From the NCBI RefSeq assembly GCF_038725785.1, contig NZ_CP109796.1:2604001-2668000 (forward strand): a stretch of 64,000 nucleotides of DNA, written 5' to 3'. This document shows positions 2,927 to 29,336 of this stretch, one piece after another. Numbering within the stretch: position 1 is the stretch's first letter; the number at the start of each line of letters is the position of its first letter. This DNA comes from Termitidicoccus mucosus (GTDB lineage Bacteria > Verrucomicrobiota > Verrucomicrobiia > Opitutales > Opitutaceae). The notes under the pieces were generated by a model, which saw only the letters and a program-made list of their open reading frames with translations, ran no database searches and was not told where the DNA came from. The translations under genes and the position numbers were made by a program.

Positions 2927-3081
2927 TGCCAGGGCCTTTGAGGGCAAGTCGCAGCCGCTTTGTTTGGCCTAAAATAGGCCCGGGTTCGCTGGCAATGTAA
3001 CCCATTAGCCTGCATTGTGTCAGTGCTTGTCGCCACACCGTTTTAGTGCGGCGGAGGACGTGTGGTGTTCAGCCCCCCCCC

Positions 3082-3114
3082 AAAAAAAACGCCGCGGCGG
3101 CGGGACGCGGCGTT
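3082..3114 (-). terminator. Rho-independent terminator after ilvC
   Basis: On the minus strand a 9-bp GC-rich stem (AACGCCGCG with CGCGGCGTT, loop 9 bases) is followed directly by eight T residues. It lies 47 bases past the ilvC stop codon and reads in the ilvC direction, so it probably ends the tRNA-Val/ilvN/ilvC transcript. Confidence 0.85.
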
Positions 3115-3160
3115 CGGGGGAAGATTGAGCCTTCCCGGTGATTGTGCGGTGAAGGCCGGC

Positions 3161-4186
3161 TCAGTAGGCCGCTTGCACGCCCTTGATGTTTTTCTTGGAC
3201 ATCCAAGGCATCATGCTGCGCAGGCGGGCGCCGGTTTTCTCGATGGAGTGTTTCTGGCCGGCGGCGAGAAGCTTGTGGTAGTTCTTCAGGCCGCCCTTGT
3301 ATTCGGCCACCCACTGCTTCACGAATTTGCCGGTCTGGATTTCCTTGAGGATCTTCTTCATCTCGGCCTTGACCTTCGCGTTGATGACGCGCGGGCCGCG
3401 GGTGATGTCGCCGTACTTGGCGGTCTCCGAGATCGAGAAGCGCATGCCGGCGATGCCGGATTCATACATGAGGTCGCAGATGAGCTTCAACTCGTGGAGG
3501 CACTCGAAGTAGGCCATCTCGGGCTGGTAGCCGGCCTCGACCAAGGTCTCGTAGCCGGCCTGCACGAGCGCGCTGGCTCCGCCACAGAGGACGGCCTGCT
3601 CGCCGAAAAGGTCGGTCTCGGTTTCCTCCTTGAAGGAGGTCTGGAGCACGCCGGCGCGGGTGGAGCCGATGCCTTTCGCCCAGGCGAGCGCGGTTTTCTT
3701 GGCTTTTTTGGACTTGTCCTGCGCGACCGCGATGAGCGCCGGCATGCCTTTGCCCTCGGTGTAGAGGCGGCGGACCATGTGGCCGGGGCCTTTCGGCGCG
3801 ACCATGATGCAATCGACATCGGGGGGCAGCTTGATGAGGCCGAAGTGGATGGCGAGACCGTGGCTGAACACGAGGGTCTTGCCCTTGGTGAGGTTGGGCG
3901 CGATGTCCTTCGTGTAAACATCGGCCTGTTTCATGTCGGGAAGGCCGACCATGATGACGTCGGCTTCGCGGACGGCGTCGGCGGTGTCGAGCACCTTGAA
4001 GCCGTGTTGTTCGGCGACGGCGCGCGACTGGCTGCCGGGGTAGAGGCCGATGATGACCTTCACGCCGGAATCCTTAAGGTTGAGCGCGTGCGCGTGACCT
4101 TGCGAACCGTAGCCGAGGACGGCGACGGTTTTGTTCTGGAACACGCCGAGATCGGCGTCTTTGTCAGTGTATACTTTGGCGGGCAT
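3161..4186 (-). CDS. ilvC: ketol-acid reductoisomerase, class I
   Basis: This NADPH- and Mg-dependent enzyme isomerises and reduces acetolactate/acetohydroxybutyrate for valine, leucine and isoleucine synthesis. The Rossmann motif [14 protein letters not shown] lies at residues 24-37. The metal-binding acidic residues of the knotted C-terminal domain are visible as ETDLFGEQ and [11 protein letters not shown]. At 341 residues it is the short class I form. It follows ilvN on the same strand after 109 bases and precedes a strong terminator, so it is the last gene of that unit. Confidence 0.97.
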
Positions 4187-9840: not shown

Positions 9841-9940
9841 CTTTCTTCTTTCCTCTTTATCTTTCTCTTTCTCTTTCTCTTTCTCTTTCGTCAGGAACGG
9901 GCAGGGAGAAAGAGGAAAGATAAAGAATAAAGAGGAAAGA
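9841..9940. repeat. pyrimidine/purine hairpin with CTTTCT hexamers
   Basis: A pyrimidine arm (9841-9890) contains five tandem TCTTTC-type hexamers. After a 15-base GC-rich spacer, a purine arm (9906-9940) is largely its inverted copy (AGAGGAAAGATAAAGAAT). A near-identical hairpin lies at 17420-17518. It fills the 255-base gap between the convergent TPR and mscS genes. Confidence 0.8.
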
Positions 9941-17419: not shown

Positions 17420-17518
17420 TCTTTCCTCTTTATTCTTTCTCTTTCCTCTTTCTCCCGGACGGGAAACCTCCGTTTTGATTGAGGAGAAAGAGGAAAGAGA
17501 AAGAATAAAGAGGAAAGA
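17420..17518. repeat. perfect 36-bp inverted repeat (pyrimidine/purine hairpin)
   Basis: The arms 17420-17455 and 17483-17518 are exact inverted copies, 36 bases each, separated by 27 bases. One arm is entirely pyrimidine except for A in TTATTC, so each strand is strongly skewed. It lies between lysS and the KAS III fusion gene and is the sister of the element at 9841-9940. It could act as a transcription-terminating hairpin for the fusion gene, although there is no T-run. Confidence 0.95.
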
Positions 17519-17564: not shown

Positions 17565-19163
17565 TCACCAGACGAGCAACCCGCCCGCGAAGGTCATGCC
17601 GGCGCCCACGCTGCAAAAGATGATCTTGTCGCCGGGGTTGAAGATGCCTTCCTCGGCCGCCCAGCCGAGCGCCATCGAGACACTGGCGGCGGAGGTGTTG
17701 CCGTATTTGCCGATGGTGACCACGAAGCGTTCGTAGGGAATGCCGACGCGCTTGCTCACGGCGCGCAGGATGCGCTCGTTGGCCTGGTGCGGGACGATCC
17801 ACGCGATGTCGGACGGCGCGAGGTTGTGGCGCTTGAGCGCGTCGCCGATGAGGTCGGCAAAGGCGATGACGGCGTGCTTGAAGACGGCGGCGCCGTTCAT
17901 CTGGAGGAAAAAGTCGTCGCGGTCGTTGCCCGCGGCGCTGGGCACGGGCCGCTTGGCCCCGCCGCCGGGCCGCTGGATGGCGGTGAACTGATCGGCATCG
18001 CCGGAAAGCGCCATGCGCGCGAGACGGTGCCCGCCGGGCGCGTCGGTGAGGATGGCCGCGCCGGCGCCGTCGCCGAAGAGAAAGGCGGTGGCGTGGTCGC
18101 GCGGGTTGGTGATGCGCGAGAGGAGCTCGGCGGTGACGACAATGAGTTTTTTCGCGGTGCCTGAGCGGATGAAGGCGCGGCCGACTTCGAGCGCGTAGAG
18201 CCAGCCGGCGCAGGCGGCGTTGAGGTCGAAGGCCAGGGCGCGCGGGATGCCCAGCTCCTTGGCCAGGGCGCTGGCCATGGCGGGCACGGGCTGGTCGGGG
18301 ATGAGTGTGGCCATGATCACGCCGTCGATTTCGCCGATGTCGATGCCGGCCTGCTCGGCGGCGCGGCGCACGGCGACGACCGCGAGCCCGGTGGCGGTCT
18401 CGCCCTCGGCGGCGTAACGGCGTTCGCGGATGCCGGTGAGCTTGATGATTTCCTCCTCCGTCATGTCGGGGAAGGCTTTCAGGATTTCCTTGTTGAAGCG
18501 GACGCCGGAGGGAATCGCGTAACCGACGCCGGCAATACAAACCGTCTCGCAGGACGCGGAAACGGGAGACACGGCAGGCGCGGGCGCGGCGGAAACGTGC
18601 GTGGCGAGGTAACGGGCGACATCGTCGCCGGAGACACGTCCGCCCGGGCCGGTGGCCTCAATGTCGGCGACGGCTGTGTGGTCCAGCCCGGCGTCCTGCG
18701 CAACCTTGATGGCCCGGGGTGTCCAGAGCGGGGCGGTGCCGGCACGCATGACGGACATCGGCGGATGCGAGTATTCGGAGGGAGCCATGAAGGCGGGGGC
18801 GGGCTCCGCCGGGGCGGGAACAGCCAGTGGTTTGGGCGCGGTGGCGGCGACGGCGGGCGGCGGGGTCGTCCTGGGCACGGAGCCGGCGGCGACTTCGAGA
18901 TGCTTCAGGGAAAGGTCGGTGGTTTCGATGCGCAGGAAGGGCGCGCCGGGCGGAAGAATGTCACCGGCCCGGGCGATGACGGACTGGATGGTGCCGTCGC
19001 AGGGCGCCTCGAATTCAAAGACGGATTTGTCGCTTTCGAGTTCGGCGATTTTCTGGCCTTTGGCAACCGTCGCGCCGGGCTGCACGACGATATCGATGAC
19101 GGTGAGTTCGGCCACAGTGGCTCCCATGGAGGGCACGGGGACTTCGATGAGCAAGGTATCCAT
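17565..19163 (-). CDS. lipoyl domain / E3-binding domain / KAS III fusion protein
   Basis: The product is 532 residues from ATG at 19163; a GTG three codons upstream is also possible. Residues 1-80 form a biotinyl/lipoyl attachment domain with the swinging-arm lysine in ESDKS (Lys46). A Pro/Ala linker follows. Residues 145-187 are a peripheral subunit-binding domain (TPRAIKVAQDAGL, GPGGRVSGDDVARYL). From about 205 to the end is a complete FabH-like ketoacyl synthase III with Cys318 (NAACAGWLYAL), His459 (VPHQANERIL) and Asn489 (YGNTSAAS). It looks like a dehydrogenase-complex E2 whose catalytic domain has been replaced by KAS III. Acyl transfer from the lipoyl arm to the synthase is my inference. 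No E1 or E3 gene is nearby. Confidence 0.92.
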   Translation of the reverse strand: MDTLLIEVPVPSMGATVAELTVIDIVVQPGATVAKGQKIAELESDKSVFEFEAPCDGTIQSVIARAGDILPPGAPFLRIETTDLSLKHLEVAAGSVPRTTPPPAVAATAPKPLAVPAPAEPAPAFMAPSEYSHPPMSVMRAGTAPLWTPRAIKVAQDAGLDHTAVADIEATGPGGRVSGDDVARYLATHVSAAPAPAVSPVSASCETVCIAGVGYAIPSGVRFNKEILKAFPDMTEEEIIKLTGIRERRYAAEGETATGLAVVAVRRAAEQAGIDIGEIDGVIMATLIPDQPVPAMASALAKELGIPRALAFDLNAACAGWLYALEVGRAFIRSGTAKKLIVVTAELLSRITNPRDHATAFLFGDGAGAAILTDAPGGHRLARMALSGDADQFTAIQRPGGGAKRPVPSAAGNDRDDFFLQMNGAAVFKHAVIAFADLIGDALKRHNLAPSDIAWIVPHQANERILRAVSKRVGIPYERFVVTIGKYGNTSAASVSMALGWAAEEGIFNPGDKIIFCSVGAGMTFAGGLLVW

Positions 19164-19273
19164 TCTAGGCACAAGGGATTAACAGGGCCGCGGCGCGATG
19201 CGCAAGCACGGCGTTTACAGCGCGGATTTTTCCCTTGCTTTGACGGCACGCGGGGTTGCGCATGCGGTGGAAT

Positions 19274-24896: not shown

Positions 24897-27800
24897 ATGC
24901 AACTACAAGCCGAATTTCACGCCGGCCTCGATGTCGGCTCCACCACGCTCAAGCTCGTCATCGTCGAGCCCGCCGGCGGCGGCATCGTCTTCTCCGAATA
25001 CCGCCGTCACAACACCGACATCCCCGCCGGCCTGCGCGCCGTGTTCGCCCATGCCCGCGAAACCATCGGCGCCGACGCTCGCATCGCGCTCGCCGTCACC
25101 GGCTCCGCCGGCATGGGCCTCGCCGAGGCGCACGGCATCCCGTTTCTCCAGGAAGTCATCGCCGCCGCCGAGGTCGTCACCCGGCGCAATCCCGACATCC
25201 GCACCCTCGTCGACATCGGCGGCGAGGATGCGAAAATGATTTTCTTCGCGCCCGGCCGTGCGCCCGACATCCGCATGAACGGCTCCTGCGCGGGCGGCAC
25301 CGGCGCGTTTATCGACCAGGTCGCCACGCTTCTCGGCGTCGAGGTCGCGCAACTGGACGCGCTCGCGCGCGACGCCCGCACGGTGCATCCCATCGCCTCG
25401 CGCTGCGGCGTGTTTGCCAAGACCGACATCCAGAACCTCCTCGCGCGCAATGTCCCGCCCGCCGACATCGCCGCGAGCGTCTTCCACGCCGTCGCGCTCC
25501 AGGTCGTCACCACACTCGCGCGCGGCCGCGACATCATGCCTCGCCTGCTGCTCTGCGGCGGCCCGCTCGCCTTCATCCCCGGCCTGCGCGCCGCCTGCCT
25601 GAAGATGATGAATGTCGCCGAGGCCGACTGCGCCGTGCCGGAAAACGCCGCGCTCGTCCCCGCGCTCGGCTGCGCCATCGCGCGCGACCACGCCCGCCTC
25701 GCCGGCACCATTGACGAACTCCTCGCCCGCTTCGCCACCGCGCGCCCCGGCATGCCGCTCCTGAACGGCGCCCGCCTCGAAAAGCTCTTCGCCGACACCG
25801 CCGCCTACGATGCGTGGAAGGCCGCCAAGCAGCGCCACGCACTCCCCCGCGTCGCGCTCGACGCCCTCGAAACCGACACCTGCTTCCTCGGCATCGACTC
25901 CGGCTCGACCACCACGAAAATCATCGCCATCGACGCGCGCGAGCGGGTCATGTTCACCTTCTACGAAAAAAACAACGGCAACCCGCTCGCCGCCGTGCGC
26001 AAGGGCCTCTCGCGCTTCCACGACGAAGCCGCCGCCGCCGGCCGCCCCGCGCTCCGCATCGCCTCGGCCGCCGTCACCGGCTACGGCGAGGACCTGGTCA
26101 AGGCCGCCTTCGACTTCGATCTGGGCCTGGTCGAGACCATCGCGCACTATCTCGCCGCGCACAAACTGTCCCCCGATGTCACCTTCATCCTCGACATCGG
26201 CGGGCAGGACATGAAGGCCGCCTTCATCGAAAACGGCGCCATCGTGCGCCTCGACATCAACGAGGCCTGCTCCTCCGGCTGCGGCTCCTTCATCGAGGGC
26301 TTTGCCAACTCGCTCCGCCACACCGCCGCCGAATTCTCCGCGCTCGCCTGCACTGCCGGGACCCCCTGCGACCTCGGCACGCGCTGCACCGTGTTCATGA
26401 ATTCGAAGGTCAAGCAATCCCTCCGCGAAGGCTCGACCCTCCAGGACATCGCCGCCGGCCTCGCCTACTCCGTCGTCAAAAACTGCCTCTACAAAGTCCT
26501 GAAGCTAAAAAACCCCGGCGACCTCGGCGCGCACATCGTCGTGCAAGGCGGCACCATGCGCAACCACGCCGTCGTCCGCGCGCTCGAGTTGCTCACCGGC
26601 CGCGAGGCGCTTTTTGCCGACATGCCCGAGCTCATGGGCGCATATGGAGCCGCGCTGCACGCCCTGCGAAACGCCGCGCATGGAACGCGGACGGCCCGTC
26701 CGCCCGATGCCGCCGCCGCGCGCATGCCGCTGCTCGCCGCCCTCACCCACCCCGCCGAGGCGGTCACCGAGGACATCACCTGCCCCGGCTGCGAAAACCG
26801 CTGCTCCGTCCGCAAATATGCCTTCGACAACGCCAACATCTTTTTCTCCGGCAACAAGTGCGAGAAAATCTTCACCAACCGCGGGGCCTCCGCCCGCAAA
26901 GGCGAAAGCATCTACCCCTTCAAATACAGCCAGCTTTTCGGACGCGCCGCGCCTTCCGCCGGCGCTCCCCCAATCGCGCGCGCCCGCGCGCCCGTCATCG
27001 GCATCCCCCGCGCGCTGAACTATTACGAAAACCACCCCTTCTGGCACGCGCTCCTCACCACCGCCGGGGCGCGCGTCGTCCTCTCCGGGCGCTCCACCTT
27101 CGGCCTCTACGAAAAAGGCGCGGGCACCATCATGTCCGACAACATTTGTTTCCCCGCCAAACTCGTCCACGGGCACATCTACGACCTCATCGCCCGCAAA
27201 GTCGACCGCATCCTCATGCCCTTCGTGGTTTATGAGCAACGCGAGGACACCCGGTCCGTCAACACCTTCAACTGCCCCGTCGTCACCGGCTATTCCGACG
27301 TCGTCCGCAGCGCCATCGATCCCGAAAAGAAACACGGCATCGCGCTCGACGCCCCCAGCGTCACCTTCCACGACACCAAGCTCCTGGAGCGCGCCTGCCG
27401 TGGTTATATTGTGGATACACTCGGCCTCCCCGCGCGCGTCTTCCCGCGCGCCTTCGCCGCCGCGCTCGGCGCCCAGGAAGCGCACGCCCGCGGCCTCGCC
27501 GAAAAAGCCCGCGCCATCGCCGTTTCCGCCGCCGAAAAAGGCCGCCTCCTCATCCTCCTGGCCGGACGCCCCTACCACACTGATCCGCTCATCCAGCACA
27601 AAGTCGCCGACATGATCGCGGCCTTCGGAGCGGACGTCATCAGCGAGGACATCGTCCGCCTGGACGACGACCCCGCCGCCGCCGACCCCGGCACCGTGCG
27701 CCAGTGGGCCTACACCAACCGCATCCTCAAAGCCGCCCGCTGGGTGGCCGGCGCGCCCGCCCACGTGCACTTCGTGCAGCTCACCTCCTTCGGCTGCGGC

Positions 27801-29336
27801 CCCGACGCCTTTGTCATCGACGAGGCGGGCGATATTCTCCGCCGCGCCGGCAAAAGCCATACCATCCTGAAAATCGACGACATCAACAACCTCGGCTCGC
27901 TCCGCCTCCGCATCCGCTCCCTCGTCGAAAGCCTCGAATACCGCGCCGCCGCCCCCGCAGGTGCGTCGCTAGCGACGCCCGCCACCGGCGCGGCAGCGCC
28001 CGCAATCGTTCCGAGCGGAGCGACATGTCTTCCAAATCAAAAATCGAAAATCGAAAATTCCACCACCCCCGCCTTCACCGCCGCCGACCGCCGCCGCACC
28101 ATCCTTGCGCCCTTCTTTTCCGAAGCCTACTCGCCCTTCATCCCCGCCATCCTCGGCCTCATGGGCTACCGCGTCGTCAACCTTCCGCCCGCCAACGACG
28201 CCTCCATCGACTACGGCCTCAAATACGCCAACAACGAAGTCTGCTATCCCGCCACCCTCGTCGTCGGCGACATCATCCGCGCGCTCAACTCCGGCAAATA
28301 CCAGGCCGGCGAAATCGCCGCCGGCATCACGCAAACCGGCGGACAATGCCGCGCGTCGAACTACATCGCCCTCATCAAAAAAGCCCTTGTCGCCGCCGGT
28401 CATCCGGACGTCCCCGTCATCTCCGTCGCCACCGCCGGCGGCGCGCTCTCCAACGACCAGCCCGGCTTCCAGTTGCGCTGGCGCGGCAACATCCGCCCCA
28501 CCATCGCCGCCATCCTCTACGCCGACCGCATCGCGCAGATGCACAACGCCACCGCCCCGCGCGAACGCGCGCCCGGCGCGTCCGCCCGCCTGCGTGACGA
28601 TTACGCCGCGGCCGGCGCCGCCTGCGTCGCCCGCCGCGACCTCCCCGCCCTGTATCAACTCCTCCGCGAGGCCGCGCGCGACTTCAACGCCGCCGCCGAT
28701 CCCGCCAAAACCCGCATCCCCCGCATCGGCATCGTCGGCGAAATCTACGTCAAGTATAACTCCATCGGAAACAAAAACATCGTCGAGTGGCTCATCGCCC
28801 AGGGCATCGAGCCCGTCGTGCCGCCCCTCGCCGGCTTCTTTCTCCAGGAATTTCCCAACCGCCGCACCAACGTCGCGCAAAACCTCGCCCACCGCACCGG
28901 GCTCCCCTTCATGGACACGCTCGCCTACGCGCTCGTGCGCCATTACCTGAAAAAATTTGACCGCATCGGCTCCGCCTTCCGCCACCACCATCCCTTCCCC
29001 GACATCTACGGGGAGGCGAAGTCCGCCTCGCGCATCATCAACCTCGCCGCCCAATACGGCGAGGGCTGGCTCATCCCCGCCGAACTCTCCTCCTTCGCGC
29101 ACCGCGGCATCCACAACGCCGTCAGCCTGCAGCCCTTCGGCTGCATCGCGAATCACCTCGTGGCCAAAGGCATCGAAAAACGCATCCGTGACCTCTACCC
29201 GCGCATGAACCTCCTGTTCCTCGACCTCGACAGCGGCGCCAGCGAGGCGAACCTGCTGAACCGGCTCCATTTCATGATCCAAAACGCCAGAGTGGAAGCC
29301 ACCCGGTCCTCCGCGCCCGAATTGGTGGAAATGTGA
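24897..29336 (+). CDS. giant (R)-2-hydroxyacyl-CoA dehydratase activase-like protein
   Basis: The product has 1479 residues. Two consecutive BadF/BadG/BcrA/BcrD/HgdC-type ASKHA ATPase modules start at GLDVGSTTLKLVIV (about residue 8) and GIDSGSTTTKIIAID (about 331). Each keeps the iron-sulphur cysteines (NGSCAGGTGAF and SRCGVFAKTD; NEACSSGCGSF and LGTRCTVFMNSK). A CPGCENRCSVRKY cluster (about 628), a DUF2229 region (IGIPRALNYYENHPFW) and a long C-terminal HgdB-like region follow. HgdC-type activases use ATP to push a low-potential electron into a dehydratase. This fused form is widespread in anaerobes but its substrate is undefined. No CoA-transferase or dehydratase is adjacent. A repeat-derived linker lies near residues 1022-1055. 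Confidence 0.88.
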   Translation: MQLQAEFHAGLDVGSTTLKLVIVEPAGGGIVFSEYRRHNTDIPAGLRAVFAHARETIGADARIALAVTGSAGMGLAEAHGIPFLQEVIAAAEVVTRRNPDIRTLVDIGGEDAKMIFFAPGRAPDIRMNGSCAGGTGAFIDQVATLLGVEVAQLDALARDARTVHPIASRCGVFAKTDIQNLLARNVPPADIAASVFHAVALQVVTTLARGRDIMPRLLLCGGPLAFIPGLRAACLKMMNVAEADCAVPENAALVPALGCAIARDHARLAGTIDELLARFATARPGMPLLNGARLEKLFADTAAYDAWKAAKQRHALPRVALDALETDTCFLGIDSGSTTTKIIAIDARERVMFTFYEKNNGNPLAAVRKGLSRFHDEAAAAGRPALRIASAAVTGYGEDLVKAAFDFDLGLVETIAHYLAAHKLSPDVTFILDIGGQDMKAAFIENGAIVRLDINEACSSGCGSFIEGFANSLRHTAAEFSALACTAGTPCDLGTRCTVFMNSKVKQSLREGSTLQDIAAGLAYSVVKNCLYKVLKLKNPGDLGAHIVVQGGTMRNHAVVRALELLTGREALFADMPELMGAYGAALHALRNAAHGTRTARPPDAAAARMPLLAALTHPAEAVTEDITCPGCENRCSVRKYAFDNANIFFSGNKCEKIFTNRGASARKGESIYPFKYSQLFGRAAPSAGAPPIARARAPVIGIPRALNYYENHPFWHALLTTAGARVVLSGRSTFGLYEKGAGTIMSDNICFPAKLVHGHIYDLIARKVDRILMPFVVYEQREDTRSVNTFNCPVVTGYSDVVRSAIDPEKKHGIALDAPSVTFHDTKLLERACRGYIVDTLGLPARVFPRAFAAALGAQEAHARGLAEKARAIAVSAAEKGRLLILLAGRPYHTDPLIQHKVADMIAAFGADVISEDIVRLDDDPAAADPGTVRQWAYTNRILKAARWVAGAPAHVHFVQLTSFGCGPDAFVIDEAGDILRRAGKSHTILKIDDINNLGSLRLRIRSLVESLEYRAAAPAGASLATPATGAAAPAIVPSGATCLPNQKSKIENSTTPAFTAADRRRTILAPFFSEAYSPFIPAILGLMGYRVVNLPPANDASIDYGLKYANNEVCYPATLVVGDIIRALNSGKYQAGEIAAGITQTGGQCRASNYIALIKKALVAAGHPDVPVISVATAGGALSNDQPGFQLRWRGNIRPTIAAILYADRIAQMHNATAPRERAPGASARLRDDYAAAGAACVARRDLPALYQLLREAARDFNAAADPAKTRIPRIGIVGEIYVKYNSIGNKNIVEWLIAQGIEPVVPPLAGFFLQEFPNRRTNVAQNLAHRTGLPFMDTLAYALVRHYLKKFDRIGSAFRHHHPFPDIYGEAKSASRIINLAAQYGEGWLIPAELSSFAHRGIHNAVSLQPFGCIANHLVAKGIEKRIRDLYPRMNLLFLDLDSGASEANLLNRLHFMIQNARVEATRSSAPELVEM
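27963..28060. repeat. intergenic-type repeat inside the activase coding sequence
   Basis: A 16-base perfect palindrome (GCGTCGCTAGCGACGC, 27963-27978), a GCGGCAGCGCC word, and a heptamer array (AATCAAA, AATCGAA, AATCGAA, AATT; about 28036-28058) lie in frame. They encode a low-complexity linker with SKIENS. The same words occur in gaps at 34580-34599 and 41844-41996. Confidence 0.85.

Follow-up and report, generated by a model that had tools for sequence, protein, structure and literature searches.

By the textbook account, free acyl-CoA is produced by a dehydrogenase complex and then taken up by the ketosynthase FabH. The Bkd complex and FabH of bacteria such as Staphylococcus link branched-chain 2-oxo acid oxidation to fatty acid priming in this manner, free branched acyl-CoA being supplied by an ordinary Bkd (PMC10026030). 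In E. coli FabH, CoA is contacted by Thr28, Trp32, Arg36 and Arg151, among other residues (PMC4606726). The protein described here is encoded in a 64,000-nt window of the Termitidicoccus mucosus genome (the window being the whole stretch of DNA that was analysed) and probably serves the same link, but its ketosynthase is carried on an E2-like chain. A first-pass annotation made from the sequence alone knew of no described enzyme of such design, and we found no paper describing a lipoyl-KAS III protein when open-licence PMC text was searched by title and start of abstract.

The gene lies at window positions 17565..19163 on the minus strand, as do all of the features located below, with an ATG at 19163 and a stop codon ending at 17565, and encodes 532 aa (a GTG at 19172 is an alternative upstream start that would give 535 aa). 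Pfam recognizes, from the N- to the C-terminus, Biotin_lipoyl (PF00364; 2e-14), E3_binding (PF02817; 4.7e-8), ACP_syn_III (PF08545; 2.6e-24) and ACP_syn_III_C (PF08541; 2.7e-30), all above their gathering cut-offs. The lipoyl domain (residues 1-81; 18921..19163), the strands of which are seen in an AlphaFold2 model, is followed by an Ala/Pro-rich linker (residues 82-148; 18720..18920; pLDDT below 50 at residues 99-142), an E3-binding, or peripheral subunit-binding, domain (residues 149-189; 18597..18719) with helices at 149-157 and 179-189, a second flexible linker (residues 190-208; 18540..18596; low pLDDT at 191-204) and a FabH-type KAS III domain (residues 209-532; 17568..18539). The model, built from a 25-row alignment, has a mean pLDDT of 83.9 and consists of three folded blocks (the lipoyl domain, the helical E3-binding domain and KAS III at 209-532) separated by two disordered linkers at 99-142 and 191-204. 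The 50 best Foldseek matches to the KAS block were all KAS III-type structures, mostly FabH (top match at 1.9e-36), with 36% identity to E. coli FabH. The NCBIfam FabH-like model NF006829 matched the C-terminal part above its cut-off (312.6 versus 249 bits), TIGR00747 fell slightly short of its own on the KAS III part (289.2 versus 292.1), and NCBIfam E2 models matched the N-terminal half below their cut-offs. No match to the 2-oxoacid dehydrogenase acyltransferase domain (PF00198) was found by Pfam in the 532-aa protein, KAS III standing in its place. The protein resembles E2 proteins of the AceF, SucB and BkdB types in its N-terminal lipoyl domain with an ESDK lysine, its Ala/Pro linker and its peripheral subunit-binding domain, and differs from them in carrying KAS III instead of PF00198 and in that its expected product is not an acyl-CoA.

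The domains and key residues are shown by the sequence; lipoylation is inferred, no biochemistry bearing on it having been found. The predicted attachment site, Lys46 in the motif ESDKS (19026..19028), is invariant, together with Cys318, His459 and Asn489, in all 25 aligned fused proteins, five of which come from other phyla. Across 97 loci, some from duplicate genomes, the lysine was kept in each of the 94 lipoyl domains recovered. At the remaining three loci, the contig begins within the E3-binding domain (L030), the protein is an ordinary FabH (L240), or no lipoyl-E3-binding match was found within about 3 kb upstream (L230, a metagenome-assembled genome [MAG] with a 76% identical KAS at 3010-3999). 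Biotin attachment motifs differ from the ESDKS-type context; biotin instead of lipoate on Lys46 was considered and is thought unlikely, the ESDKS context of 87 of the 94 lipoyl domains being E2-like.

The ketosynthase shares with FabH its fold, its Cys-His-Asn triad and the basic residues of its ACP side. Cys318 (18210..18212), His459 (17787..17789) and Asn489 (17697..17699) align with Cys112, His244 and Asn274 of the E. coli enzyme. Unlike FabH, it is fused to a lipoyl arm and its CoA contacts are replaced: according to the alignment, Thr28 by Met234, Trp32 (adenine stacking) by Glu238 (18450..18452), Arg36 (CoA contact) by Leu242 (18438..18440) and Arg151 (adenine stacking) by His357 (18093..18095). 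We compared 65 Opitutales lipoyl-KAS domains and seven divergent fused ones (six from other phyla, plus L130) with 94 other KAS III domains from the same searches, leaving out domains shorter than 280 aa, identical domains and large context loci. The Opitutales set was defined by phmmer E-values below 1e-120 and takes in L230 as well as forms in which the KAS is a separate gene, whose lipoyl neighbor was not checked in every case. Thr28 was kept in 0/72 lipoyl-KAS domains versus 87/94 others, Trp32 in 0/72 versus 89/94, Arg36 in 0/72 versus 83/94, and Arg151 in 4/72 versus 89/94, all four being among the seven divergent members. The position of Phe304 was Val in all 72 and in none of the 94. 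The triad was kept throughout (72/72 and 94/94). Lys214, Arg249, Lys256 and Lys257, which we take to be the ACP-side basic set of FabH, correspond to Lys429, Arg464, Lys471 and Arg472 in the T. mucosus protein, and in 71 of the 72 domains each of the four positions holds Lys or Arg, the exception being a His at 256 in L235. These counts show that lipoyl-KAS has lost the CoA contacts while retaining the catalytic residues and the ACP side; that it transfers and condenses acyl groups independently of acyl-CoA is inferred from sequence, with no biochemistry found.

A KAS of this type was present in 31 of 57 relatives searched, namely 30 of 37 genomes of the family (Opitutaceae) and G043 from another family. 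The 30 family loci comprised 19 full-length fusions, 10 loci split into adjacent genes, with the lipoyl-E3-binding gene directly upstream of the separate KAS gene, and one locus cut by a contig end; at L032 the lipoyl gene was seen in the relatives search. In a wider search (80 of 583 places kept), fused forms were found in Opitutaceae/Opitutales isolates and MAGs, Pelagicoccus among them, and in MAGs of Spirochaetia, Chitinivibrionales, Sumerlaeia and two Planctomycetota. Five fused proteins of other phyla were scanned, and an E3-binding domain was recognized in none of them. Occurrence throughout Planctomycetota was rejected, since only two of 392 genomes matched at an E-value of 1e-80 and one of these was the genome of the query. 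A further match within Verrucomicrobiota (G379) was set aside as an ordinary FabH because it retains the CoA contacts and lacks a lipoyl domain. In a tree of 60 KAS domains, 24 lipoyl-KAS rows separated from 36 others with a support of 100/99, and the split-form rows sampled nested inside the fused ones; since the fused form also occurs in other phyla, fusion is most simply taken to be ancestral. A frameshift or assembly join as its source is excluded by its conservation over many genera and several phyla. One family genome (G332, contig C66) has, besides the usual copy, a second, divergent lipoyl-KAS (L130; 54% identical) in which the CoA contacts are lost.

Several claims of the first-pass annotation can be judged at this point. 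That one frame joins a lipoyl domain bearing Lys46, an E3-binding domain and a complete KAS III held, positions and domain order being confirmed, as did the Cys318-His459-Asn489 triad and the placement of KAS III where E2 proteins have their acyltransferase core. It had named a frameshift, or loss of the lysine or triad in relatives, as grounds for refutation; neither was met. It had also suggested looking for the same domain order elsewhere, and fused forms were indeed found in many genera and several phyla, with the reservation made above about the E3-binding domain.

The genome of T. mucosus has three 2-oxoacid E1s. Five proteins match PF00676, one of them below the cut-off; by reading, three are likely to be dehydrogenase E1s and the other two transketolase-type. 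The pyruvate dehydrogenase (PDH) E1 adjoins an E2, and the 2-oxoglutarate dehydrogenase (OGDH) E1 adjoins an E2 and an E3; both gene sets read as normal. The third E1 is P0002, a 700-aa alpha-beta fusion encoded outside the window. E3_binding occurs in three proteins of the genome, the PDH-side E2, the OGDH-side E2 and the lipoyl-KAS III protein itself, and 19 kb around the alpha-beta E1 contained no match to any of the three. The description of this E1 as an orphan without an E2 rests on these E3_binding matches and the 19-kb check, not on a genome-wide search for PF00198. Five proteins match PF02852, of which two (L062, L063) were read as dihydrolipoyl dehydrogenases. The genome also carries an ordinary fabH; this and the E2s of the PDH and OGDH sets answer the first-pass annotation's question of whether another fabH and a normal E2 exist. 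A third KAS III of approximately 354 aa (L003; C1:1490269-1490532, minus strand) lies beside a hydrolase-like frame in what we take to be, possibly, an olefin (OleA/OleB) locus. A class-IV (branched-chain-type) aminotransferase gene just upstream of the E1 was considered as strong evidence and dropped, as it is found only here among the E1 loci compared.

The partner E1 and its co-occurrence with the lipoyl-KAS system are shown by sequence comparison. Among the 57 relatives, 32 had both the E1 and a lipoyl-E3-binding/KAS gene, 22 had neither, one had the E1 alone and two had lipoyl/KAS alone; the three exceptions are incomplete genomes (68, 83 and 87% complete). Restricting the count to near-complete relatives (at least 90% complete, at most 5% contaminated) gave agreement in 43 of 43, 26 with both and 17 with neither, a split whose Fisher test is uncorrected for kinship. 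The lipoyl-E3-binding part was checked in 27 genomes, not all of which belong to the 57; G013 and G016 were scored present by KAS fragments at contig ends, and G017, G029 and G030 by lipoyl-E3BD alone. G043, from another family, has both, and four Opitutaceae genomes (G011, G012, G072, G318) have neither. In 387 genomes of the phylum, 35 family genomes had the E1 at 3.5e-240 or better and all 35 carried the lipoyl-E3BD, 21 with KAS and 14 without; five weaker E1 matches (35-37%), with a stop between the halves, were seen in other families. In the family genomes G014, G332 and G353, the E1 and lipoyl-KAS are on one contig, 12 to 18 kb apart. In each of the six loci found outside Verrucomicrobiota (L235, L236, L238, L239, L241 and L304, the last from a genome of the same phylum as L239 and with its E1 cut by the end of the locus), the gene immediately upstream of lipoyl-KAS, on the same strand, encodes an alpha-beta E1 with 38 to 43% identity to P0002, and the two genes overlap in L236 and L238. 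In a tree of 38 E1s, those from other phyla (seven rows, two of them one gene) grouped with 16 Opitutales E1s with a support of 100/99, apart from 15 other E1s. The E1 and KAS trees show the same three lineages, a Spirochaetia member, the other distant members and Opitutales, the branching order of which is unresolved in both. The alpha-beta fusion is likely to be the cognate E1, an assignment made by genomic association only.

Taken together, these observations suggest that the protein is most likely the E2-like hub of a 2-oxoacid dehydrogenase in which a ketosynthase has taken the place of the acyltransferase core. In the mechanism that we propose, the orphan alpha-beta E1, a ThDP enzyme, would decarboxylate a 2-oxo acid, most likely a branched one derived from Val, Leu or Ile, and then reductively acylate lipoyl-Lys46. 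The arm would swing to KAS III, where the acyl group would move from S-acyl-dihydrolipoyl to Cys318, a transfer that is inferred. Malonyl-ACP would dock on the basic patch, be decarboxylated with the help of His459 and Asn489 and be condensed to 3-oxoacyl-ACP, and E3 (dihydrolipoyl dehydrogenase), whose docking through the E3-binding domain is likewise inferred, would re-oxidise the arm. The dehydrogenase would in this way prime fatty acid synthesis without free acyl-CoA. No biochemistry was found for such a hand-off. The first-pass annotation had proposed a direct acyl hand-off bypassing free acyl-CoA, and this is supported by genomic evidence, since the E1 lacks an E2, the E1 and lipoyl-E3BD are inherited together and are adjacent in other phyla, and the CoA contacts are lost; lipoylation, transfer and the identity of the acyl group remain inferences.

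As to the 2-oxo acid, which is also inferred, the first-pass annotation had allowed for either pyruvate or a branched-chain feed. Pyruvate appears the less likely because a separate PDH exists, and a branched-chain 2-oxo acid is our best guess, probable and as yet unproven. The lipids of Opitutales are rich in iso and anteiso acids (PMC5303756, PMC12193912): iso-C15:0 makes up 33.3 and 48.6% in two Lacunisphaera species and 9.1% in a third, in which iso-C14:0 is the principal acid (PMC5303756), and a comparative table of ten strains names a branched acid first in all eight with data (PMC12193912). Lipids alone are background, not proof, because strains with branched acids span more than one family. 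The position of FabH Phe87 is Val in 64 of the 65 Opitutales lipoyl-KAS domains and mostly Met in the divergent ones. The nearest PDB structure to the alpha half of the E1 is a human-type branched-chain 2-oxo acid dehydrogenase (BCKDH) E1-alpha, whereas for the beta half PDH and BCKDH structures are at about the same distance. The E1 falls below every NCBIfam cut-off, the best models there being PDH, and the substrate is therefore undetermined from E1 models.

A real complication for this explanation, out of reach of the first-pass annotation, comes from 14 near-complete family genomes (genera g16, g58, g60 and g61) that have the E1 and lipoyl-E3BD without lipoyl-KAS. Their lipoyl gene comes after pyrG-kdsA where this could be seen by reading. 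In each of them a FabH retains its CoA contacts, and there are one to three further KAS III matches, of which only one (L193) was looked at. Either ordinary FabH must accept the acyl group in these genomes or the acyl group goes elsewhere. The E1s of four of them nest among those of KAS-bearing genomes in the 38-E1 tree, on which ground KAS was probably lost. The ordinary FabH kept Trp32, Arg36 and Arg151 in 21 of 21 genomes with lipoyl-KAS (L001, L100-L119) and in 20 of 21 rows from 20 genomes without it (L173-L193), the exception being L193, a second KAS III of G225. Residue 87 of ordinary FabH is Phe or Met in 20 of the 21 genomes with lipoyl-KAS (L001, L100-L119), versus Leu, Val or Ile in 15 of 17 complete genomes without it (L174-L192). 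The 17 comprise the 14 KAS-less genomes and three further complete genomes from which the entire system is absent; G029 (Leu), G030 (Met) and G035 (Phe) were left out as incomplete or contaminated. This pattern would fit ordinary FabH taking over branched primers, which is no more than a possibility given that kinship was not controlled.

Three other readings of the data were considered. The first is channelling by tethering, in which KAS III still uses acyl-CoA and the lipoyl and E3-binding domains only dock it to PDH or another dehydrogenase for on-the-spot use. The intact KAS III fold and triad, the presence of PDH and OGDH gene sets and the retention of Arg151 in four of the seven divergent members speak for it. 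Against it, the Thr28, Trp32 and Arg36 contacts are gone in every lipoyl-KAS domain compared, the partner E1 is distinct from that of PDH and is an orphan near which no acyltransferase E2 was found, and the universally kept lysine would be unneeded for mere docking; we regard this reading as unlikely. Also improbable is a second reading, in which lipoyl-E3BD serves the E1 generally and the acyl group goes to another acceptor, such as ordinary FabH or an E2 acyltransferase acting in trans, KAS III being a dispensable though specialised passenger. It draws support from the 14 genomes in which E1 and lipoyl-E3BD persist without lipoyl-KAS alongside a FabH retaining its CoA contacts, and from the separate KAS and lipoyl-E3BD genes of 10 of the 30 family loci. 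However, fusion is most simply ancestral, the probable loss of KAS inferred from the four nested E1s runs counter to it, and the CoA contacts are gone in the split forms too. A third reading, the same hand-off leading to a secondary metabolite built from a malonyl unit or to acyl transfer to another acceptor, is allowed by the existence of KAS III relatives with other products (the PQS biosynthetic enzyme, PqsC and CorB are among the PDB matches) but is very unlikely, as the sequence is closer to FabH than to these, the window neighbors (lysS, a hypothetical gene and proA) form no apparent biosynthetic cluster, and the presence of KAS in 30 of 37 family genomes suggests primary metabolism.

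Returning to the lipoyl-arm hand-off, a bolder version of it, towards which the evidence leans without settling the matter, is that this is a new class of dehydrogenase complex making a C-C bond rather than an acyl-CoA, in which a dedicated E1 passes a branched acyl group to a CoA-contact-less ketosynthase and on into fatty acid synthesis. In that version, the system, which is found in Opitutaceae and has a patchy distribution in Spirochaetota, Fibrobacterota, Sumerlaeota and Planctomycetota, seemingly had a single origin. If true, two steps would be joined in one machine from which the starter unit is never released and for which CoA is not needed, giving the 2-oxoacid dehydrogenase architecture a second chemical outcome and explaining the commitment of branched-chain amino acid carbon to membrane lipids in bacteria with lipoyl-KAS. 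A partner would be provided for an orphan E1 that curated models match best as PDH, below their cut-offs, and the protein would be a candidate module with which fatty acid or polyketide synthesis could be supplied with 2-oxo acids of choice.

The chromosomal neighbors were rejected as a functional clue. No match to lysS was found as a neighbor of lipoyl-KAS in the 51 family loci examined; proA is nearby in six of them and, by reading, pyrG-kdsA in others, a pattern more in keeping with inheritance of position than with function. The stretch separating lysS from the lipoyl-KAS gene contains a perfect, purine/pyrimidine-rich 36-nt inverted repeat with a 27-nt loop (window positions 17420-17455 and 17483-17518), part of which recurs with one mismatch at 9920-9939. 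Elsewhere in the window, positions 24897-29336 hold a 1479-aa frame that we take to be a fused 2-hydroxyacyl-CoA dehydratase activase/BcrAD-type protein.
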